A stretch of DNA of 60,121 nucleotides, from assembly GCA_947581765.1 (NCBI GenBank), contig CANPVU010000006.1, positions 1-60,121 of the forward strand, written 5' to 3'. Made by a program: the position numbers and the translations under genes. The notes under the pieces are model-generated. The model ran no database searches. It saw only the letters and a program-made list of their open reading frames with translations, and was not told the DNA's origin. The first letter of the stretch is position 1. The number at the start of each line of letters is the position of its first letter. Shown here in pieces: positions 1,416 through 56,366 of the stretch. Source of the DNA: an uncultured Bacilli bacterium (GTDB taxonomy: Bacteria > Bacillota_I > Bacilli_A > RF39 > UBA660).

Positions 1416-2819
1416 TTAACAACAATTGTTTAATATATCTCTTGCAGCAACTATTCCAGTAGCAGCTGCAGTTACGATATTTCCAGCTTTACCTGAACCA
1501 TCTCCTACAAAATAAATATTATAATTATTTAACTTAAATTTATCATTAGTTTCTATCTCATTACTAAAAAATTTTATTTCTGGTCCATATAGTAATGTTT
1601 CATCATTAGCAACTCCAGGTATAATTTTATTTAACTTATCTAAGCCTTCTAAAATATTTAACACAATTCTGTGTGGCAATACTAAAGCTAAATCTCCAGC
1701 AACACAATCTTTTAACGTTGGTTCAATAAAACCTTTATTAATTCTATGCCATTCACTTCTTCTTCCAGATTTTAAATCCTTTAATGACTGAATTATTGGC
1801 TTACCATCACCTAATACATTCGCTATTCTAGCAATACTTTCTCCATATTGTCTAGTATTTGTTACAGGCTCTGTTAAATTTACTTTACTTATAAAAGCAA
1901 AATTACTATTCATAGACTTTTTATCTTTTAATGCATGTCCATTAACGCAAATATATCCATAATAATTTTCTTTTGCTACAAATCCACCTGGATTTGTACA
2001 AAATGTTCTTATCTCATCGCCATATGTATCTGTTTTAATAAATATTGTAGGATCATATATTATACTACACAAATCCTCTAATATTTCTTTTCTTACTTCT
2101 ACACGTACACCTATTTCAATACTCTGTGATAAATATGGAATTTTATATTTATCTGCCAATTCTTGAACCCATTTAGCACCAGTCCTTCCAGGTGCTACAA
2201 TAACATTTTTACAAACAACTTTATTTTCTTTTTTCTTGTTCATATATACTATAGTATGTTTATCAGCTGACCCACTTATAATATCAACAACATTAGCATT
2301 TTCTAAAAGTTCAACACCTTTTTTAGATAAAAATTCACATACCCCTTTAATATACTCTGGTAAATGGTCACTACCTAAATGTTTTTGTTTTATTAAGAGT
2401 AATCTTGCTCCTGTAAGTGCAACTCTTTTTTTAATTTCTTCTGCCTCAGACATATTACTTGGATATATATCACTATCCATATTAAACTTATTAAAAACTT
2501 TTTCAGTATAATCTATTAAATTATATGCTTCCTCTTGACCCATATATTTAAACAAATCCGACTTACCTAACTTTGGAATAAAATTAAGTTTGCCATCAGA
2601 AAATGTACCTGCTCCACCATAGCCACTTAATATATTACATGGTTCGCAATTAGCACATGTTACTTTATTCTTATTCATAGGGCAACATCTATTTTCTACC
2701 TTTTTACCCCTATCTAAAATTAAAATTTTTAAATTTTTATTATTTTTAATTAACTCATAAGCGCTAAACAATCCTGCTGGGCCTGCACCTATAATAACTA
2801 CATCATAAAAGTTTTCCAT
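1416..2819 (-). CDS. FAD-dependent dehydrogenase (COG2509 type)
   Basis: Cytosolic flavoprotein of the NAD(P)/FAD-dependent oxidoreductase superfamily. The N-terminal dinucleotide fold is explicit (VVIIGAGPAGLFSAYEL), and a second glycine-rich motif near the C-terminus (YFVGDGSGKAGNIVTAAATG) closes the FAD site. The family-typical cysteine cluster is present early (ENRCCPMNK, then CANCEPC), followed by SGYGGAGTFSDGKLN. Length 467 is normal. The ribosome site is GGGTGGTG just before the ATG. It is probably cotranscribed with the downstream protease gene. The physiological substrate of this widespread Firmicutes family is not established, so no symbol is given. Confidence 0.85.
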   Translation of the reverse strand: MENFYDVVIIGAGPAGLFSAYELIKNNKNLKILILDRGKKVENRCCPMNKNKVTCANCEPCNILSGYGGAGTFSDGKLNFIPKLGKSDLFKYMGQEEAYNLIDYTEKVFNKFNMDSDIYPSNMSEAEEIKKRVALTGARLLLIKQKHLGSDHLPEYIKGVCEFLSKKGVELLENANVVDIISGSADKHTIVYMNKKKENKVVCKNVIVAPGRTGAKWVQELADKYKIPYLSQSIEIGVRVEVRKEILEDLCSIIYDPTIFIKTDTYGDEIRTFCTNPGGFVAKENYYGYICVNGHALKDKKSMNSNFAFISKVNLTEPVTNTRQYGESIARIANVLGDGKPIIQSLKDLKSGRRSEWHRINKGFIEPTLKDCVAGDLALVLPHRIVLNILEGLDKLNKIIPGVANDETLLYGPEIKFFSNEIETNDKFKLNNYNIYFVGDGSGKAGNIVTAAATGIVAARDILNNCC

Positions 2820-2874
2820 AACACCACCCTTAACATTATAACATATTTATGATACAATTTAACAGGTGATTTAC

Positions 2875-3183
2875 TTGAAAAAATTTAATATGATTGATGA
2901 AAATTTTATATGTGAAAACTGCGGAAAAAAAGTAGAAAAATTAAATTACACAGCTAGAGATCATTGTCCATACTGTTTATATTCTAAACACGTTGACATA
3001 AATCCCGGAGATAGATTAAATGACTGTAAGGGACTATTAAAACCTATTGATATAGAAAAATTTAAAAATACTTATAAAATTATATATGAATGCGTAAAAT
3101 GTCATGAAAAGCATAAAAATATAAGTGCTAAAGATGATGATATTAATAAAATAATTGAAATTTCAAGTAATAAAGGAAATTAA
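2875..3183 (+). CDS. RNHCP domain protein (small zinc-binding)
   Basis: Small protein of about 102 residues with the RNHCP-type signature: FICENCGKKV, then RDHCPYCLYSKH, then DINPGDRLNDCKGLLKPI. Two CxxC pairs plus histidines and a late CVKCHEKH suggest zinc binding. Molecular function of this family is unknown to me; its cysteine spacing resembles RNA- or nucleotide-binding zinc ribbons. The start is judged to be TTG at 2875: an upstream in-frame GTG at 2866 lies inside the ribosome site AGGTGAT and cannot serve as start at the same time. An alternative is the ATG at 2890. It converges on trmL with a shared terminator. Confidence 0.7.
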   Translation: MKKFNMIDENFICENCGKKVEKLNYTARDHCPYCLYSKHVDINPGDRLNDCKGLLKPIDIEKFKNTYKIIYECVKCHEKHKNISAKDDDINKIIEISSNKGN

Positions 3184-17063: not shown

Positions 17064-18377
17064 CTAAGGTTCTATTCTATTTGGTCCTCTAAATATGAAC
17101 ATAGTTTCTTTTAATGATTCAGTTTCAAGAAGTAACATTGTTATTCTATCTACTCCTAAAGCAAATCCTCCATGTGGTGGACATCCATATTTAAAAAATT
17201 CAAGATAAAATTTTACATCATTAGATAATCCTTTTTCTTTAGCTTGATTACATAATATTTCATATCTATGTTCTCTAAGTGCTAAAGTAGTAATTTCACA
17301 ACCTTTCCAAATAAGGTCAGCTCCTTGTGGAACACCATTTTCTCTCTTATGATAAAATGCTCTTTTTTTAGCACTAAAATCTGTAATAAATACAAACTCA
17401 TGTCCATATTGTTCTTTTATATATTTGTATGCTAATTTTTCAGATTCAGAATTCATATCTCCTACATCTTCATAATTCATTTTAAAATTATATTCTTTTT
17501 CTAATATTTTATACAATTCTTCTAATTTAATTCTTGGAAATGGTTTTGTAGGTATTACTACATCTACATTAAATAAATTTTTAATCTCATTACCATATTT
17601 CTCTTTTATTTTAGTTAATGAATATATAAATAAATTTTCTTCAAAATCCATAAGTTCTTCTAAAGATTCAATATAACTCATTTCAATATCAAATGATGTA
17701 AATTCAGTAGCATGCCTATAAGAATTAGAGTTTTCAGCTCTAAATGCGGGTGCTACCTCAAATACTTTTTCTAATCCTCCACACATTGCCATTTGTTTAT
17801 AAAATTGTGGACTTTGAGCTAAATAAGCTTTTCTATTAAAATAGTTTAATTCAAAAACTTCAGAACCTGATTCACTTGCAGCACTAATGATTTTTGGTGT
17901 ATGGATTTCAATAAAATCATTATTAATAACATACTCTCTCATCGAATTTATTAAGCAAGTCTGGACTTTAAACATAAGTAAATTTTTTTCATTTCTTAAA
18001 TCTAAAAATCTATAATTTAATCTTGTATCTATTGATGATGAAGACATATCTTTATAATTTAATGGTAATTCTAATGCACATTTACTAGTTACTATAATAT
18101 CATTTGGAATTAACTCCATTTTATTTAGCTTTACTTTTTCATTTTGATATAATGTTCCAATAACTTTTATAGTACTTTCACAAGTTAATTCTGATACAAT
18201 TTTATTTAACTTTTTATTAGTATCATTTTTTTCTATAGTAACTTGAACTTTACCAGTAGTATCTCTTATAACTATAAATTGTACATATTGTAAATCTCTA
18301 ATACTATCAACAAAACCTTCAATAATAATTTCTTTTCCAATATGTTCATTTAAATCTTTAAAATATATTTTATTCAT
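17064..18377 (-). CDS. aspS: Aspartyl-tRNA synthetase, archaeal/eukaryotic type (possibly non-discriminating)
   Basis: Class IIb synthetase of about 437 residues. An N-terminal OB-fold anticodon domain (1-100; EIIIEGFVDSIRDLQYVQFI) precedes the catalytic domain. Class II motif 2 is FRAENSNSYRHATEFTSFD and motif 3 is GFALGVDRITMLLL; the end FRGPNRIEP is archaeal/AspRS2-like. The large insertion (GAD) domain of standard bacterial AspRS is missing. Such enzymes in Firmicutes often also charge tRNA-Asn, with GatCAB converting the product; that is inference here. A closely related AsnRS is the main alternative, but the T-box specifier reads GAC (Asp). ATG at 18377 has a GGAGG site. Confidence 0.8.
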   Translation of the reverse strand: MNKIYFKDLNEHIGKEIIIEGFVDSIRDLQYVQFIVIRDTTGKVQVTIEKNDTNKKLNKIVSELTCESTIKVIGTLYQNEKVKLNKMELIPNDIIVTSKCALELPLNYKDMSSSSIDTRLNYRFLDLRNEKNLLMFKVQTCLINSMREYVINNDFIEIHTPKIISAASESGSEVFELNYFNRKAYLAQSPQFYKQMAMCGGLEKVFEVAPAFRAENSNSYRHATEFTSFDIEMSYIESLEELMDFEENLFIYSLTKIKEKYGNEIKNLFNVDVVIPTKPFPRIKLEELYKILEKEYNFKMNYEDVGDMNSESEKLAYKYIKEQYGHEFVFITDFSAKKRAFYHKRENGVPQGADLIWKGCEITTLALREHRYEILCNQAKEKGLSNDVKFYLEFFKYGCPPHGGFALGVDRITMLLLETESLKETMFIFRGPNRIEP

Positions 18378-18399
18378 AAGTATCCTCCATTCATATATA

Positions 18400-18645
18400 A
18401 TAAAAACAGTTATATCATCCACAAGGGACGAATAACTGTTGAATCCGCGGTACCACCCAATTTATTATATATAAAAATATAATCACTTTAGTAATATAAC
18501 GTTTTACATACGACTTATTCTAATACTATTTCAAATAAGTAGCTCATAAGTGTCTTTCATCTTTAGTCTATACTATCTTTCACCAAATGATAGCTCTCTA
18601 AAATAAACTATAAGATTACTCCTCTTAATCATCGCTGATAAATAG
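18400..18645 (-). promoter_or_regulatory. T-box riboswitch with apparent GAC (Asp) specifier
   Basis: Read on the minus strand: Stem I begins with GCGATGATTAAGAGGAGTA (AG-bulge/K-turn region), then GAGAGC...GGTGAAAG typical of the distal Stem I, and a specifier loop with GAAAGACACTT, where GAC is the likely codon. The T-box sequence GGGTGGTACCGCGG lies at about 18444-18458. Antiterminator overlaps a terminator hairpin with arms AACAGTTAT and ATAACTGTT (18400-18440) followed by TTTATT. Uncharged tRNA binding would stabilise the antiterminator and allow transcription of the downstream synthetase. Confidence 0.92.
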
Positions 18646-22618: not shown

Positions 22619-22645
22619 AACTGAGCAAATATTATTTACTCAGTT
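22619..22645. terminator. Bidirectional terminator between kinase and ABC-F genes
   Basis: Arms AACTGAG and CTCAGTT with a 13-base loop; GTTTTTATA follows rightward and TTTTAATTTG leftward. It overlaps the 3' end of the ABC-F frame. Confidence 0.75.
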
Positions 22646-24256
22646 GTTTTTATATACCCTATTTATAGTTTCCTTATAATCATCATAATTACCAATATAT
22701 TCAACTAATTTATTATCTTCAATACTAACTATCTTAGTAGCAATCTTATTAATAAAACATCTATCATGTGATACAAAAAGTATTGTACCCTTATATTCAT
22801 TTAATGTATCCTCTAATATCTCTCTTGTTGTTATATCAATATGATTTGTAGGTTCATCTAATATTAAGAAATTAATATCCTTTTGCATTAAACAAAATAA
22901 TTTAAGTCTAACTTTTTCACCACCAGATAATTTAGATACCTTCTTACTAATAGTATTTTTTGTAAATAAGAATTTAAATAATGCACTTCTTAAATGTGAT
23001 TCTTCCCCTTTATAATTTTTTCTAGCAATTTCATATATTGTTTCATCTGAATCAAAAGTAATATTTTGTGAAATATAACCTATATTTATATTTGTACCTA
23101 TATTAATACTGTTATTATTATTTATTATTTCTTTTATTAAAGTACTTTTTCCACTACCGTTATGACCTAGTAAACATACATGTTCCTTATATTTTATCGT
23201 CATATTAGCATTCTCAAATATTATTCTATTATCAAACTTAATATTTAACTTATTTATTACTAATACATCATTTCCTGATCTATTACCTACATTAAATTCT
23301 AAAGGTATTATACTTTTTTCTTTTGGTTTACTTATTTTCTCCATTTTTTCTAATCTTTTCTCTATTGATTTAGCTCTTTTAAAAAATGCTTCATTATCTC
23401 CTAAAGTTCCAAATTCTCTTAATTTCTTTATACTTTCTTTCATTGCTTTTATCTTTTTTTGCTGATCTTTATAATCCTTAAAATCAAGCATTACTCTTTT
23501 TTCATTTTCTTCTAAAAAGTACGAATAATTTCCATAATATATATCTAAATGTCCATCTTCTAATAAAACTGTTTTATTAGATATTTTATCTAAAAAATAT
23601 CTATCATGTGATACTAATAATACTGTACCTTTATACTTTTTTAAATATTTTTCTAACCATTCTAAAGTTTGAATATCCAGGTGATTAGTTGGTTCATCTA
23701 AAAGTAATATATCTGGATTATTAATCATAAGTGTAGCAAAAGATACAACTCTTTTTTCTCCACCAGATAAGTTATTATAGTATGAATCTATTAAGTGTCC
23801 TATATTGAATCCATCTACTATTTTTCCAATTTTTTCATTTATTTCATATCCACCTAAATTCATAAATTTTTCTTGTAAATTAGTATATTTAACTATTATT
23901 TTTTCTAATTTTTTACCTTTTGTTTTTGTCATTTTTTCTTCGTAGTTTTTTAATTTATTTTCAATATCTATTATATTTTTTACACTACTATATAATATAT
24001 CTTTAACCTTATAATCTTCTTTTTCTATATTTATCATTTGATCTAAATAACCTATAGTAGCATTCTTTCTTATTGAAATTGCACCAGTATCAGGCTTTTC
24101 AATACCCATAATTAATTTTAAAATAGTTGTCTTTCCAGAACCATTAGGACCTATTAGTGAAACAATTTCTCCTTTACTGATTTCAAGTGATATATCCTTT
24201 AAAACATCTTTATATCCATAATTTACTGTTACTTTATTTAAACTAATATCTATCAT
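22640..24256 (-). CDS. ABC-F family ATPase, candidate ribosome protection protein
   Basis: 538 residues, two ATPase cassettes and no membrane helices. Cassette one: LIGPNGSGKTTILKL, LSGGEKRVVSFATL and ILLLDEPTNHLD. Cassette two: LLGHNGSGKSTLIKE, LSGGEKVRLKLF and FLILDEPTNHID. The inter-domain linker (about residues 250-320) is the usual charged helical hairpin that reaches into the ribosome. Antibiotic-resistance members (Vga, Lsa, Msr, VmlR) expel drugs from the peptidyl transferase centre. That role is favoured here because the gene sits behind a leader peptide and competing hairpins, a hallmark of inducible resistance ABC-Fs. ATG at 24256 with AAAGGAGAG; a longer frame reads back into the leader. 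Confidence 0.88.
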   Translation of the reverse strand: MIDISLNKVTVNYGYKDVLKDISLEISKGEIVSLIGPNGSGKTTILKLIMGIEKPDTGAISIRKNATIGYLDQMINIEKEDYKVKDILYSSVKNIIDIENKLKNYEEKMTKTKGKKLEKIIVKYTNLQEKFMNLGGYEINEKIGKIVDGFNIGHLIDSYYNNLSGGEKRVVSFATLMINNPDILLLDEPTNHLDIQTLEWLEKYLKKYKGTVLLVSHDRYFLDKISNKTVLLEDGHLDIYYGNYSYFLEENEKRVMLDFKDYKDQQKKIKAMKESIKKLREFGTLGDNEAFFKRAKSIEKRLEKMEKISKPKEKSIIPLEFNVGNRSGNDVLVINKLNIKFDNRIIFENANMTIKYKEHVCLLGHNGSGKSTLIKEIINNNNSINIGTNINIGYISQNITFDSDETIYEIARKNYKGEESHLRSALFKFLFTKNTISKKVSKLSGGEKVRLKLFCLMQKDINFLILDEPTNHIDITTREILEDTLNEYKGTILFVSHDRCFINKIATKIVSIEDNKLVEYIGNYDDYKETINRVYKNN

Positions 24257-24283
24257 AGTAATCTCTCCTTTAATTTTTACATT

Positions 24284-24376
24284 AAAAAACCACACGGAGC
24301 ATCCGTATGGCGGATGCAGGCATGACAAAAACTCACACCTGCTAATTACTATTTTTTATAGTTTATGCAGGTGTGA
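24284..24376 (-). promoter_or_regulatory. Attenuator leader of the ABC-F gene with competing hairpins
   Basis: On the minus strand four pairings compete. Arm 1 TCACACCTGC (24367-24376, the last codons of the leader ORF) pairs with arm 2 GCAGGTGTGA (24333-24342), followed by GTTTTTG. Arm 2 can instead pair over nine bases with CATGCCTGC (24316-24324). GCATCCG/CGGATGC (24299-24317) excludes a strong terminator CCATACGGA/TCCGTGTGG (24290-24310) that is followed by six T. This is the organisation of ribosome-mediated attenuation; which state is ON cannot be decided by eye. Confidence 0.8.
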
Positions 24377-24416
24377 CTACCAATGTATACATAATAACGT
24401 GGTTAATACTAAACAT
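24363..24416 (-). CDS. 17-residue leader peptide of the ABC-F gene
   Basis: ATG at 24416 to TAA at 24363 encodes MFSINHVIMYTLVVTPA. Its ribosome site and start context (AAAGGAGAGATTACTATG) are an exact 18-base copy of those before the ABC-F gene itself. The final codons form one arm of the attenuator hairpin, so a ribosome halted near the end of the peptide would alter folding of the leader RNA. The stalling drug or signal is unknown. Confidence 0.7.
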   Translation of the reverse strand: MFSINHVIMYTLVVTPA

Positions 24417-24440
24417 AGTAATCTCTCCTTTTCTTTTAAG

Positions 24441-24468
24441 ATTATATCATACTTTAATTTATTTACAA
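24441..24468 (-). promoter_or_regulatory. Promoter of the ABC-F leader
   Basis: Minus-strand TTGTAA (24463-24468), 16-base spacer, TATAAT (24441-24446) with TGA before it. Transcription would start about 15 bases ahead of the leader ribosome site. Confidence 0.7.
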
Positions 24469-24542
24469 AATTTATATCTAATATAATTTGACAATGAAAT
24501 ATTATAATGTTAACATACACTCTCAAAGAAGGGGTAATTTTT

Positions 24543-24824
24543 ATGCAAGAAAATATATATGAGAAAACATTTAATGAAATTCAACAAGAAGGATATTATA
24601 TAAATGAAGAAATTATAAATAAAGTATTATTAATTTTACAAATTAGTCTAAATACATATTTTGAATTTCCAGAAGAATATAGTAATTCAGATAAATTATT
24701 TTGGTTATTAAGAAGTCAACTTGGACCACATGTTATAAGAATAATTGAAGAATTTAAATATAGTTATCATGCAGAATTACAATTTATAATTGCTAATACA
24801 TGTTTAAAAAATAGAATAGAATAG
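24543..24824 (+). CDS. N-terminal part of a gene split by a TAGAA repeat
   Basis: 93 residues, ATG at 24543 with AAGGGG site. Helical, acidic and without recognised motifs (NEIQQEGYYINEEIINKVLL, HVIRIIEEFKYSYHAELQ). It ends ...CLKNRIE and then TAG inside a three-copy TAGAA repeat. Removing one repeat unit joins it in frame to the next ORF (KNRIE-YLEGMPSLINY), giving one protein of about 247 residues. I therefore read the two ORFs as halves of one gene, currently out of frame. Family unknown. Confidence 0.65.
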   Translation: MQENIYEKTFNEIQQEGYYINEEIINKVLLILQISLNTYFEFPEEYSNSDKLFWLLRSQLGPHVIRIIEEFKYSYHAELQFIIANTCLKNRIE

Positions 24825-24826
24825 AA
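24812..24826 (+). repeat. (TAGAA)3 tandem repeat inside a coding region
   Basis: Three perfect copies of TAGAA at 24812-24826. The first two copies are read as part of the upstream ORF; the third creates its stop codon. A change of one copy shifts the frame and fuses both ORFs, as in slipped-strand (phase-variable) loci, though three copies is low for a highly mutable tract. Confidence 0.85.
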
Positions 24827-24838
24827 TATTTAGAAGGA

Positions 24839-25285
24839 ATGCCTTCACTAATAAATTACTCAAAAAAATCAAATTATATTAAACTTGATACACTTTATGG
24901 TTCAGTTAAAGTATATAAAGCATTAGATATATTTCCATATATTTCAAGATTAATAAATTATGGAGAATGTCATAACTGTTGTTTATCATTTATAAAATCA
25001 AATAAATATTTAAGTGCTAGTACATGTTTAATAGATCGTACATTTTATGGAAAACACTATCATTCATTTATTAATATAGAAGATGGTGTATTAGATTTAT
25101 CACATAATGCATTTATGAGTATAGATGACTATAATAAAATATTTTCACCTATCATAATAAATACAGTTTCTGTATATCAATTAGATGATGAAGAACAAAG
25201 AATAAATAAAAATGATAGTTTAGGTGGAGATAAAAATCTATTATTGCGTTTAGCACTAGATAAACAAATAAATAATAAATTTTAA
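24839..25285 (+). CDS. C-terminal part of the split gene, possible papain-like fold
   Basis: 148 residues. As an independent ORF its ATG has AGAAGG directly adjacent, too close to work well, which supports continuity with the upstream ORF. The core reads GECHNCCLSFI, then 25 residues later YGKHYHSFINIEDGVLDLSHN: a Cys ... His ... Asp arrangement with strand after the histidine, as in transglutaminase/NlpC-type papain-like folds. This is a by-eye suggestion. The C-terminal 40 residues are acidic then basic. It ends in a strong terminator. Confidence 0.6.
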   Translation: MPSLINYSKKSNYIKLDTLYGSVKVYKALDIFPYISRLINYGECHNCCLSFIKSNKYLSASTCLIDRTFYGKHYHSFINIEDGVLDLSHNAFMSIDDYNKIFSPIIINTVSVYQLDDEEQRINKNDSLGGDKNLLLRLALDKQINNKF

Positions 25286-25499: not shown

Positions 25500-28400
25500 A
25501 TGAAAATAAAAAATTTTAAAGAAAAAATTTTATCATTAGTACTTTGTATAGCAATTATTCTTACTTATTTTAGTGGTATGCCAAGATTATTAGCAGAGGA
25601 TAATAAGATAGATTTAAGTAATGCTCTGCACTTTATCATTCGACATTGGCATACTGTCTCTCCAGATAGTAAGGAATATGAAACTGAAGAATCAAACGGT
25701 AATCACTTTTTAATTATAGAGGGATATATTGTTGAAAAAAATGGCAGCCATATATTCTATGTATATAAAGATAAGAAATTAGAAGAGATTAAAGATAATT
25801 CCAAATCAGATTATATTGAAAATGTAGATTCAGGCTCTGGAACTATCACTCTTAAAGTAAATCCAGTAAACGGAAGTGATGGAAAACCTTTAGAACATCT
25901 TTCTGGATTTTCTGTATCAGCTGGACATAGTACAGTAGATACTTCTGGTGATGATAAAATAACTATAACATATAATAAAAATGTACACTTAGCTAAAGCA
26001 CATGTATTCTATTCTGCAGAGAACCTAATGGTAGCTGGTTCTGATGATGAAGCAGTATTTGGAACATCGGAAAGTACTGGAAGTGATGAAAAAGATACCG
26101 CATTCGTATATACTTATACAACAAATGATGATAATCATAAAATTGGTGATGTAGTTAAAGATGAAGAAGGTAATCCTATAGATGCAAATTCTAATTTAAA
26201 TGATGAAAAAAATGCGATAAAAACTAAGGTTTATAGTACACTTGAGGGATTACATACAGATAGAACAGCAAGTGTTAACGAAAAATACGATGATGGAAGA
26301 ACATTTAATATAGATTTAGAATCATGGTTTACAAATAAAGATATTCCTACAGTAGGATTAATACTAGATGCTTCTGGAAGTATGGCATTTACTTCAGATG
26401 ATCCAAAGGCAATAAATATAAAAGACCTAGATTTAGATGAATCTGAATTAAAAGAATTAACTGATAAAGAAATTAAAAAGAGTGAGGCTGAGACAATTGC
26501 TACTAACTCAGGTTGGGAAAAGTATTTTCTTGACGATAACCAAATTAGTCTAATTTTAGATGAGCACAACGTAGATGATTCTCACCTTGGAATTAGCGAT
26601 TACACATATTACATATATGATAGTCGTGATGCAACAAAAGAATATGTTCCAATTGGATATTGGGACGGAAAAGAAACAAAGCCAATAACAACAACACAGA
26701 ACTACTTCACTGAATTAGATGATGAAAATTCCCTAATTGGATATTATAGCTTTACAAGAGGCGACTATCCTAATGATGGCGATTTAAGCACTAACAGAGA
26801 TTGGTTATTAAATAGCGTAACTGGAAAATATGCAAAAGAAGTTGACCAAATTTCCTTAACTGAAATGAGAAAATTTGAAGGAAAAGATGCTGAAACAGGT
26901 TGGCCAACATCTCATACTGGATTTAAAATGGATTCTAATGGATTCAATTTAACAAAATCTACATCTGGAATAATTCTTGATGCCGTTCCTAAAGGAGATG
27001 AATTTACAATTTCCTATACTTTAACAAAAATTGAAAATGAAAATAGTAAAGATCAATCAAATAATGAAAATACAAGTGCAGAAATATTGTATATAGGAAA
27101 TACAGATACTTCATCAAATAATAATTATTTAAGAACTTATAGAGCCGGAAATTCAAGTAAAAACAGATATAAAGGAACTATTGGAAATGGGTCTGGAGAC
27201 AACGCTTTAAATTATAACAATGTATTCAATAGTACGACAAAAAATTATATAACTCACGTTTATAAAGGTGGAAAACTTACAACATATCTAAATGGAAAGC
27301 TCGAAACATCTGATGAAGCTAAAAATAAAGAAAAAGAAGTTACTATAAATGAACATAATATTGTTTTTAATGGAATCCAAGATAATTATAATGGTGCAGA
27401 TATTATACTTGATGATGTTTATGTATTTGACAGTGCACTAAGTACTGATGAAATACAAAAATTAACAACTGAAAAAACTACTGAAAAAGAAGTCGCAATT
27501 GAAAATGAACAAATAGTTGGAATGATTGATAAAAAATTTGATTCAGAAAAAGGATGGTATTACATAAATCAAGGAAGTGATTATTCATCAATTTTTAATG
27601 AAAAAATAAATACATCAAAATCACTTGTCGGAATTTCAACATCAAAAAAAGAAAAAATAGAATTTACTGATGAAATTGTTTTACCTGAAAATCATGATAA
27701 ATCATTAGAAGGTGGAGGAACTGAAAAGGTATATGAACCAGATGAGGATACTGCAATAAAATTTTACATAGATGAAGACGGGTATTTACGTTGTTTCTTT
27801 ATGTCTGGTACAAAGCAAGAAAATATTGGAACATCATATGTTTATGTAAGTGAAGATGAAAATTATACAAAAGCTGAAGTATTACAAAGAGCATTAGGAT
27901 CATTTGTAACAAAATTAGGAGAAGAATCACCTGGTAGTGAAGTTTCAGCTGTACGTTTTAGTACAAATAATATGGCTGGTGATTTAAGTAAATTAGTCTT
28001 ACTTGATTGGACAGATGATACAAAAGAAAGTAGTAGTATGCTATCCTTAGATAGAGGAGAAAATAATGGTGGATTCCTAGATTTCACATTTAGTGAAAGT
28101 GGATTAAGACAATATAACTATGGATTAACAGGAGGAACATATACTTGGACTGGATTACAAGCTTTTAAAGACAACTTAAGTGATACAGTAGATGAAAAGT
28201 CAAAAAATAAATATATAATTATATTTACTGATGGAAAAGATAATGAATATAATTCAGAATCTTCAGAAGAAAACAATAAAGCAATTGAACTAGCTAATGA
28301 ATTAAAAGATGATGGATATACTATATATACAGTTTTACTTCCTGGTGGTCCTGTAAAAAATGATCCAGATAGTGATGAAGATGACTATGATTTAGCTAAA

Positions 28401-30716
28401 AAATTTTTAATGGAGCTTTCTGGAACTGGTGAAGAAGGCGAAAAAAAAGATGGTTATTTCTATTCAACAGAAGAATTAAAAAATAGAGATACAAAAGGAA
28501 ATTCTGTTGATGAAATTACAAATATATTTACTAATGATATTCTTTCTCAAATAACTGATAACTTAGATAATTATTCTGTAAAAGACTATATTGATCCACG
28601 TTTTGACTTAGTAGATGCAAATAATAATGTATGGCACTTAAATAGCGAAGGAAATGTACTAGTAAATAGTAATACAAAATATACTTTGTCAGATAGTGAA
28701 TCACAAGAAATTACTTTATCTAATGATAGTGATGTAGATAAAACTGCTAGAAATGCAAAATTATATTATGATAAGAATAAAGATATGTATTACCTTGTTT
28801 GGGATAAACAAACTATTCCTGGTTGTACATTAGAGGCAGATAGATTAGCTGTTTGGAACGCTAGAATTACTGTAAGAGCTAAAGATGATTTTATTGGAGG
28901 AAACGCAGTATTAACTGCTGGACATGATGAAAAAATGAATTATGTATATTCATCTGAAGATAAAAATGCTTCTTCTGGTACTGATAAAGCAATAAGAGTT
29001 ACTTCGGATGAGGCAACTGATGAAAAACTTCTAAATGAATACCCTTCTAAAGGTTTTCCAAGAGTTACAGTAAATGTTACTCCAAATAAAGGAGACTTAA
29101 ATGATGAACAAACAATTTATATGGGAGAAGAATTAACTGAAAATAGTATAATACAAAAAATAGCTACTAAAACTAAAGAAAAAACAACTGATAATAAATA
29201 TACTATATACTACTGGGAATATTTGGAAAGATACTCAAATTTAAAAGAAAATTCTGATTCGCTTGACGAACTTGCAAAGAAAATCGTAAATGGCAATTCG
29301 TCTGGTTTAAACTTAGATTATTATTATTTACCTGATTCTAACGAAGGTGAAAAACACAATCAAACAGGAACAGAAGAACATAAAAAAGATAATTTAGGAA
29401 ATTTAACTTACATATGGAATAAAGGAACTAAAGATTACCCTGTTGATGGAATTACAAAAGATACAGATACAAGAAGTTCAAGTCTTTCAGTAACATATAC
29501 TGCACTTCCTATAAATAGTGAAGTAAAAGCTATTAGTACTAATAGTAATAGTAGAGAAGATTTAACAAATGAATTAGTTAAAGAAAAAGAGAAAGATGAT
29601 AAAATATATGACTGGGATAGTGAATATAAGCCAGTTGTTGGAGAAGAAGTAAATAAAGAAACAATTCTTACAGGAAATTATACAACAAATATTGTAAGTG
29701 GTGATATCGTTTTACAAATGGAGCTTGATGAAAAAGATAAAGAAATATTAAATGGTAAAGAAATTACTTATTCAGCAGATTTATACAGAGAATATGGAAA
29801 AGATGGCAAAAAAGATAAAGTTGGAACATTAACAGCAACATACAATAATTCAAATACAAATAATCAAACACCAGAACTTGTAACAGCAAATATTTCTTAT
29901 GAAGATGATTATGACTATGCTAAAACATATGGATTACCTATTGGAGTTTACACATTAGAAGAAAACGGACAAACTAATCCAGGATCATCACTATTAAAGT
30001 TTGGCGATATAAAAAATATTGAAATAACTAACGAAAATCAAACTTTGTTTAATAAAGGAACTGATAATGAACATGCGGTAAATTATAAAGCATATGCTGA
30101 TGGAAATGAAGCACAACTTGGTACTGCATATGAATATACAAAGACATATACAGATAGTAGATATGCATTATTCCAAGTAAAAGTAGAAGAAGTACCTACT
30201 GGTAGTATTTCAATTGAAAAAGAAGCTATTGGAAAAAATGTTGATAAAGATTTAGAATTTGAATTCACTATAAATTTAACATCTCCTGTTGAAAATCCAA
30301 TAGAGCCTGATAAAATTACTGTAAAAGAAAATGACAAGGAAATAAATAACAAAGTAACTTGGACAGAAAATAAAGAAAAAAATTCTGTTACAGGAACATT
30401 CAAATTAAAACATGAAGAAAAAATTACTTTAGGTAATATACCTGAAAATACAAAATATACTATAGAAGAAACAAATAAACATGATTATGATTTAAAAGCT
30501 GTAACATTAAATAGTGAATTTAAAACTAAAGAATCTAGTTACAATGGAAAAGTAACAGCTAACACAGAAGATAAATGGAAATTTGTTAATGCTTCTCCAG
30601 TATCACTTCCAGAATCTGGTGGTATTGGTACAACAATATTCTATATTATTGGAGGTATATTATTAACAATTTCTACAATAATATTTATTTACACTAGAAA
30701 GAAAAAACATTGTTAA
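25500..30716 (+). CDS. Sortase-anchored pilus tip adhesin with split vWA and inserted LamG-like domain
   Basis: 1738-residue surface protein. A signal peptide (1-32) precedes a strand-rich N-domain (about 35-280). The vWA domain opens with the metal-site motif LILDASGSMAF (Asp290, Ser292, Ser294) but its remaining parts come only after residue 780: GGTYTWTG near 878-885 and IIIFTDGKDNEYN near 906-916. Between them lies a LamG/concanavalin-like domain (about 465-660; LYIGNTDTSSNN, YLNGKLETSDE, DIILDDVYVFDSALS). Strand-rich domains with isopeptide-type signatures follow, then LPESGG (1703-1708), a membrane helix and RKKKHC. This matches RrgA/PilA-type tip proteins. It faces the pilin/sortase operon across a shared terminator. 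Confidence 0.85.
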   Translation: MKIKNFKEKILSLVLCIAIILTYFSGMPRLLAEDNKIDLSNALHFIIRHWHTVSPDSKEYETEESNGNHFLIIEGYIVEKNGSHIFYVYKDKKLEEIKDNSKSDYIENVDSGSGTITLKVNPVNGSDGKPLEHLSGFSVSAGHSTVDTSGDDKITITYNKNVHLAKAHVFYSAENLMVAGSDDEAVFGTSESTGSDEKDTAFVYTYTTNDDNHKIGDVVKDEEGNPIDANSNLNDEKNAIKTKVYSTLEGLHTDRTASVNEKYDDGRTFNIDLESWFTNKDIPTVGLILDASGSMAFTSDDPKAINIKDLDLDESELKELTDKEIKKSEAETIATNSGWEKYFLDDNQISLILDEHNVDDSHLGISDYTYYIYDSRDATKEYVPIGYWDGKETKPITTTQNYFTELDDENSLIGYYSFTRGDYPNDGDLSTNRDWLLNSVTGKYAKEVDQISLTEMRKFEGKDAETGWPTSHTGFKMDSNGFNLTKSTSGIILDAVPKGDEFTISYTLTKIENENSKDQSNNENTSAEILYIGNTDTSSNNNYLRTYRAGNSSKNRYKGTIGNGSGDNALNYNNVFNSTTKNYITHVYKGGKLTTYLNGKLETSDEAKNKEKEVTINEHNIVFNGIQDNYNGADIILDDVYVFDSALSTDEIQKLTTEKTTEKEVAIENEQIVGMIDKKFDSEKGWYYINQGSDYSSIFNEKINTSKSLVGISTSKKEKIEFTDEIVLPENHDKSLEGGGTEKVYEPDEDTAIKFYIDEDGYLRCFFMSGTKQENIGTSYVYVSEDENYTKAEVLQRALGSFVTKLGEESPGSEVSAVRFSTNNMAGDLSKLVLLDWTDDTKESSSMLSLDRGENNGGFLDFTFSESGLRQYNYGLTGGTYTWTGLQAFKDNLSDTVDEKSKNKYIIIFTDGKDNEYNSESSEENNKAIELANELKDDGYTIYTVLLPGGPVKNDPDSDEDDYDLAKKFLMELSGTGEEGEKKDGYFYSTEELKNRDTKGNSVDEITNIFTNDILSQITDNLDNYSVKDYIDPRFDLVDANNNVWHLNSEGNVLVNSNTKYTLSDSESQEITLSNDSDVDKTARNAKLYYDKNKDMYYLVWDKQTIPGCTLEADRLAVWNARITVRAKDDFIGGNAVLTAGHDEKMNYVYSSEDKNASSGTDKAIRVTSDEATDEKLLNEYPSKGFPRVTVNVTPNKGDLNDEQTIYMGEELTENSIIQKIATKTKEKTTDNKYTIYYWEYLERYSNLKENSDSLDELAKKIVNGNSSGLNLDYYYLPDSNEGEKHNQTGTEEHKKDNLGNLTYIWNKGTKDYPVDGITKDTDTRSSSLSVTYTALPINSEVKAISTNSNSREDLTNELVKEKEKDDKIYDWDSEYKPVVGEEVNKETILTGNYTTNIVSGDIVLQMELDEKDKEILNGKEITYSADLYREYGKDGKKDKVGTLTATYNNSNTNNQTPELVTANISYEDDYDYAKTYGLPIGVYTLEENGQTNPGSSLLKFGDIKNIEITNENQTLFNKGTDNEHAVNYKAYADGNEAQLGTAYEYTKTYTDSRYALFQVKVEEVPTGSISIEKEAIGKNVDKDLEFEFTINLTSPVENPIEPDKITVKENDKEINNKVTWTENKEKNSVTGTFKLKHEEKITLGNIPENTKYTIEETNKHDYDLKAVTLNSEFKTKESSYNGKVTANTEDKWKFVNASPVSLPESGGIGTTIFYIIGGILLTISTIIFIYTRKKKHC

Positions 30717-56332: not shown

Positions 56333-56366
56333 TAAATTTCATCCTTCACTATAATATATATATTCG

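Follow-up and report, generated by a model that had tools for sequence, protein, structure and literature searches.

The window analysed here is a 60,121-nucleotide stretch of DNA from an uncultured Bacilli bacterium, and its minus strand carries a gene (22640..24256) for an ABC-F protein of 538 amino acids, in which domain search recognised two nucleotide-binding domains and an ABC_tran_Xtn linker. Upstream on the same strand, a sigma-70-type promoter with an extended TG (TTGTAA-16-TATAAT, 24441..24468) was recognised by its match to the consensus, and it is followed by a leader ORF of 17 codons, MFSINHVIMYTLVVTPA, which runs from ATG at 24416 to TAA at 24363 (24363..24416) and is found in the same place in relatives. 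The last codons of this ORF contain arm 1 (TCACACCTGC, 24367..24376), which pairs with arm 2 (GCAGGTGTGA, 24333..24342), and arm 2 can alternatively take arm 3 (TCATGCCTGC, 24316..24325) as its partner. The leader ORF, the position of arm 1 and the two partners of arm 2 had been claimed in a preliminary description of this DNA, and all of them are present. Arm S (ATAGTAATT, 24344..24352) lies next to arm 2 and is complementary to 24263-24255 in the start region of the ABC-F gene, whose ribosome site and start codon occupy 24254..24270. The 5′ arm of an antiterminator, GCATCCG (24311..24317), overlaps arm 3 by two bases, and its 3′ arm, CGGATGC (24299..24305), is located inside an intrinsic terminator (24284..24310) composed of the stem CCATACGGATGCTCCGTGTGG at 24310-24290 and six T at 24289-24284. 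Pairing of GCATCCG with CGGATGC (24317-24311 / 24305-24299) and formation of the terminator stem (24310-24290) are mutually exclusive, and the competition proposed earlier was borne out by both sequence and covariation. The terminator had also been called perfect; its stem is complete, but it includes one G.U pair.

The leader region had an MFE z of -5.0 versus shuffles, and one terminator-like site was found, compared to 0.0 ± 0.2 in shuffles. The promoter sequence is there as described, but its match in the window by itself was not above chance in the shuffle comparison; conservation across the clade of related leaders gave it more weight, with the best promoter having at least 10 of 12 consensus bases in 22 of 25 clade leaders, versus 4% of shuffles. 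In the window the leader and the ABC-F gene share one and the same 18-base start context, AAAGGAGAGATTACTATG, as had been noticed, and a search of the window's genome found its 17-base core only at those two starts. As an essential working part of the switch this identity was rejected, since it is lost in relatives. Two neighbouring ORFs without a Pfam match (24507-25285, plus strand), possibly one broken gene, are divergent from the ABC-F gene, and a surface protein of 1738 residues with DUF7601 and a C-terminal LPESGG sorting-like signal is encoded close by (25500-30716, plus strand).

Of 386 genomes from the same family, about 45 carry the closest ABC-F proteins (about 48-78% identity), and the gene is thus accessory. 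The genus of the window includes the window gene, the G006 and G008 genes and a leaderless G004 gene, which fell in different parts of the tree, and this suggests horizontal movement. The leader was present upstream of 26 of these ABC-F genes, L055 among them, and in a tree of 112 proteins the leader-bearing ABC-Fs formed one clade of 27 (26 with the leader, one loss; SH-aLRT 99) adjoining a leaderless clade of the same bacterial family. This clade was apart from Vga/Msr/Lsa, OptrA and PoxtA, and from EttA, Uup, YbiT, YheS and the Listeria rex-linked YdiF-like protein, in a tree that was built without VmlR, CplR and Sal sequences. The window protein is therefore placed outside the sampled housekeeping clades. 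None of the named resistance families (Vga, Msr, Lsa, OptrA, CplR, Sal) passed its cut-off, with about 233-334 bits against cut-offs of 680-1450, and NCBIfam NF000355, ribosomal protection-like ABC-F, passed with 433 bits against 380; the putative role of the protein is ribosome protection. The other ABC-F of the window's genome (G000:C7, L160) is YbiT-type, and in a contig scan with generic ABC patterns the relatives among the matches listed had at most 44% identity. The attenuator appears at different stages of loss in two sister loci, decaying in L055, which keeps the leader and helix 1:2 and has lost the terminator, and gone in L043. At L006 an ABC-F match (1501-3090, minus strand) contains in-frame TAG stops though its leader is intact.

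Alignment of 25 ABC-F leaders revealed that the switch was kept, each of its four helices showing compensatory changes. Both-sided changes were observed at 6 of 9 pairs in helix 1:2, 2 of 9 in helix 2:3 (98% of cells paired), 2 of 7 in the antiterminator helix 3:4 (98.7% paired) and 5 of 9 in the terminator helix 4:5 (100% paired). Over the four helices about 94-99% of cells were paired, and sliding the partner by 1-3 columns lowered this to 22-47%. Many weak hairpins occur in AT-rich DNA, and the window's promoter match alone was not significant, as would suit chance hairpins beside an ordinary constitutive ABC-F gene; this explanation was ruled out by the covariation of four helices together with codon selection in 25 relatives, and we give it practically no credence. 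For arm S and the ABC-F start region, own complementarity beat that of swapped pairs (0 of 5000 permutations), and the two sequences changed together. For example, the window has ATAGTAATT/GATTACTAT, others have AATCTATT/AATAGATT, and L067 has AACTACTT/GAGTGGTT. Arm S was absent from one subgroup of the clade leaders examined (L006, L008, L035, L038 and L056). Thus, arm S is probably a second, translational layer in most relatives, the window included.

When the leader peptides were aligned on an aromatic residue (position 0, Tyr or Phe in all), Tyr was found at -7 in 23 of 25, Arg, Lys or His at -4 in 23 of 26, and Ile-Met at -2/-1 in most. Single-base codon differences at -2 to 0 (IMY) were synonymous in 67% of cases versus 16% for the neutral expectation, while in the codons right after the aromatic residue the values were 26% and 25%, so that the constraint ends there; over positions -8 to 0 the synonymous fraction was 0.42 versus 0.17, all of these fractions being descriptive, as the compared leader pairs are not independent lineages. 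The leader ORF is thus under amino-acid-level selection up to the Tyr codon, and with ribosome sites also present it is a putatively translated ORF. The conserved aromatic codon is the 9th to 11th residue of leaders that are 11-19 codons long, and it lies 15.0 ± 1.2 nt (range 13-16 nt) from the first paired base of helix 1:2, unlike the leader stop codon, whose position varies from -4 to +15. For vmlR, the toeprint of the ribosome was shown to be about 16 nt from the P-site codon (PMC9226507), and the spacing seen here matches the downstream edge of a ribosome. The proposed stall site in the window, suggested by codon constraint, is therefore the IMY codons (24387..24395), with the Tyr codon at 24389-24387 in the P site. 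Other peptides occur on the same RNA, such as MLLYANQIKGFTI, MFLYFMKIKGFTI, MTLYSNQIKGFTI, MYIHKVIGYKK and MLNYYAKTRLYNKA, and include variants of the ...IKGFTI type; the aromatic residue is kept at the proposed stall site.

Comparative sequence analysis identifies the element as a conserved, putatively ribosome-mediated leader-peptide attenuator of the ABC-F gene, which is the kind of control that the preliminary description had proposed and for which it had looked to compensatory changes among relatives. With a conserved leader and conserved pairings, and with a protein that falls outside the sampled housekeeping clades, that proposal is supported.

The preliminary description had also pointed to folding with arm 1 free or covered, and masking the region occupied by the ribosome did switch the choice between helix 1:2 and helix 2:3 with the terminator. 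With the ribosome placed at the Tyr codon, helix 1:2 had a mean of 0.83, and with the ribosome at the stop codon the means were 0.99 for 2:3 and 1.00 for the terminator. Before the terminator was complete, stalling raised 3:4 in 19 of 24 leaders and lowered it in none; the exception for helix 1:2 among the ABC-F leaders was L034, which showed no 1:2 in its stalled fold. At equilibrium the full-length terminator was still dominant in most stalled cases, which means that the choice has to be made while the RNA is being transcribed. We propose that during free reading the ribosome would reach the stop codon and cover arm 1, upon which 2:3 would pair, the antiterminator would be weakened and the terminator would form, leaving the ABC-F gene OFF. 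A ribosome stalled with the conserved Tyr/Phe codon in or beside its P site would leave arm 1 free, 1:2 could then form and release arm 3, and 3:4 would block the terminator and turn the gene ON. In the 2:3 state, arm S beside arm 2 would pair with the ABC-F start region and curb translation of readthrough transcripts. Counting the arms suggests that the gene may be ON as well if no ribosome translates the leader; the unmasked 'free' folds include leader-internal pairing.

A second indication of polarity came from other leaders of the lineage. An RNA model of the switch without its peptide part gave 25 strong matches, each of them preceding an ABC-F gene of this kind, and weak matches before hisS, with HHH(H) leaders, and cysS, with CC leaders; the covariance-model E-values at the His/Cys loci, 2.8e-5 to 5.8e-4 per genome, are borderline once corrected for 386 genomes. 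Eight family genomes, the window's own among them, had His leaders before hisS. The His-leader core pattern occurred in 33 of 371 family genomes compared to 4 for the reversed pattern, and a His-containing leader was present at 28 of 30 core-pattern loci examined, before hisS, hisG and other genes. In both the His and the Cys leaders the five arms come in the same order, with the sensor codons ahead of arm 1, and most of those that were folded with masks adopted 1:2 and 3:4 on starvation and 2:3 with the terminator at stop, with one exception, the L193 His leader, in which 1:2 was not seen in the starved state. Since an aminoacyl-tRNA synthetase must come ON under starvation, a stall upstream of arm 1 should turn the ABC-F gene ON as well, and the polarity given above is likely on the strength of masked folding and these leaders of the same design. 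Common descent of the ABC-F and His/Cys switch RNAs is suggested, a link that rests on their shared architecture.

Two to four His codons and the same five-arm switch are present at L193, L187, L198, L199, L201, L202, L203, L204 and L268-L297, where the peptide usually ends in ...HHHN[NS]LHLLIRH, the RNA core is AAGTGCTATTTGTRGTGCTTG, and the genes are hisS, hisG and others. L201 is in the window's own genome (contig C1, near 56334-56354), which has two HisRS-like genes (L201 and G000:C4:4346-5635), the His leader being on the accessory one. L190 combines the leader MLLYRNTCCMKSMHLSL with the same switch before cysS and is a probable Cys attenuator. The window itself has a T-box leader (18421-18641, minus strand; 143 bits) before an aspartyl/asparaginyl-tRNA-synthetase-like gene (17064-18422), so both kinds of regulator coexist in this genome. 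Rfam contained no family matching the ABC-F leaders or the His leaders, and viral contigs had no exact match to one core pattern of the switch, phage carriage thus not being seen. An earlier study predicted His leaders ahead of hisS paralogues in Bacilli (PMC2965389); the available part of that work describes His-codon leaders before hisS*/hisZ, like L193-L204, and no ABC-F gene on the same design, and the likeness noted here is in the peptide.

The architecture common to the His and Cys leaders raises the question of whether the ABC-F leader also senses amino-acid starvation, reading Ile, Met or Tyr tRNA supply as HHH leaders read His. This is unlikely, because the leader has no repeated codon, other clade leaders use KGF, RLY or IGY, and the ABC-F gene is not a Tyr or Met gene; in addition, Tyr at -7 and the basic residue at -4 are kept as residues at fixed spacing, which suits nascent-chain arrest. 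Under the preferred mechanism, the inducer would most likely be a drug that targets the ribosome and arrests the nascent leader peptide.

The closest known system is the vmlR leader of Bacillus subtilis, which (PMC9226507) also joins an ABC-F gene to a short uORF, an anti-antiterminator, an antiterminator, a terminator and a layer sequestering the start site. Its uORF is the tripeptide MIN, compared to 11-19 codons here, and stalling on it is described as preventing the anti-antiterminator. Arm 1 does sit within the leader ORF, and wiring of that published type would put the antibiotic-stalled ribosome on arm 1 itself, with the resulting 2:3 as the ON state. This is very unlikely for the present leader, since 2:3 shares bases with the antiterminator and accompanies the terminator in every masked fold, the peptide constraint stops before arm 1, and the sensor codons of the His/Cys leaders lie upstream of it. 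By our calculation the stall would instead fall at residue 9-11, with 13-16 nt left before the first helix, and would free arm 1 rather than mask it. We put the probability at about 80% that the element is a transcription attenuator with a probable translational layer, turned ON by stalling partway through the leader.

Other ABC-F leaders are more distant. The cplR, vmlR2 and lsaA genes also have a conserved uORF before an ABC-F gene controlled by attenuation, but these uORFs have 3-4 residues (MR[I/M], MK[L/Q], MAGN), and stalling on them is considered to depend little on context (PMC10201436), and their ABC-F families differ from that of the window. The msrD leader, MYLIFM, likewise attenuates an ABC-F gene via an intrinsic terminator, but it has six residues, stalls at its stop codon and lets the ribosome itself block the terminator (PMC10314930), and the window ABC-F is not of the Msr family. 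In the bmrB-bmrCD leader, slowed translation leads to antitermination through a predicted anti-anti-terminator, anti-terminator and terminator, but the target is an efflux ABC transporter, the terminator is within the leader ORF and the role of the anti-anti-terminator was left unclear (PMC4191407). A literature search found no RF39/ABC-F work on such a switch. The earlier suggestion that the gene is controlled like vga, msr and vmlR was not supported as it stood, since none of the Vga, Msr, Lsa, OptrA, CplR or Sal families includes the protein and the wiring is unlike the published vmlR model.

That the gene is a drug-sensing resistance gene, with drug induction and resistance, is plausible, and we take the drug-resistance reading to be the likely one. 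The ABC-F groups with none of the named resistance clades, and it could instead be a translation factor that relieves self-arrest of the leader peptide, the switch then measuring ABC-F activity; repression of its own leader has been reported for MsrD (PMC10314930), and modulation of pausing for EttA (PMC11282234). We regard such autoregulation as rather improbable, because leaderless copies exist and the gene, which about 45 of the family's 386 genomes carry and which has a scattered occurrence in the window's genus, is more like a resistance gene. A broader view, which we put forward tentatively and consider possible but somewhat short of probable, is that arrest peptides (Tyr at -7, a mostly basic -4, Tyr/Phe at 0, often IMY) were placed on the lineage's His/Cys attenuator design as exchangeable sensors, so that the switch would sense a drug or the ABC-F's own activity and may also be ON when untranslated.

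Leader-peptide attenuation of ABC-F genes is known, and what is new is a wiring unlike the vmlR model and a probable stall codon that can be named, pinned for this class of leader peptides by two independent measures. Different peptides on one switch provide natural test pairs for the determinants of nascent-chain arrest. The host bacteria are uncultured Bacilli with small genomes, whose drug response is little known. In this lineage, one RNA design is suggested to serve both starvation and ABC-F control, and the sensor peptide and the RNA switch are suggested to evolve as separate modules.
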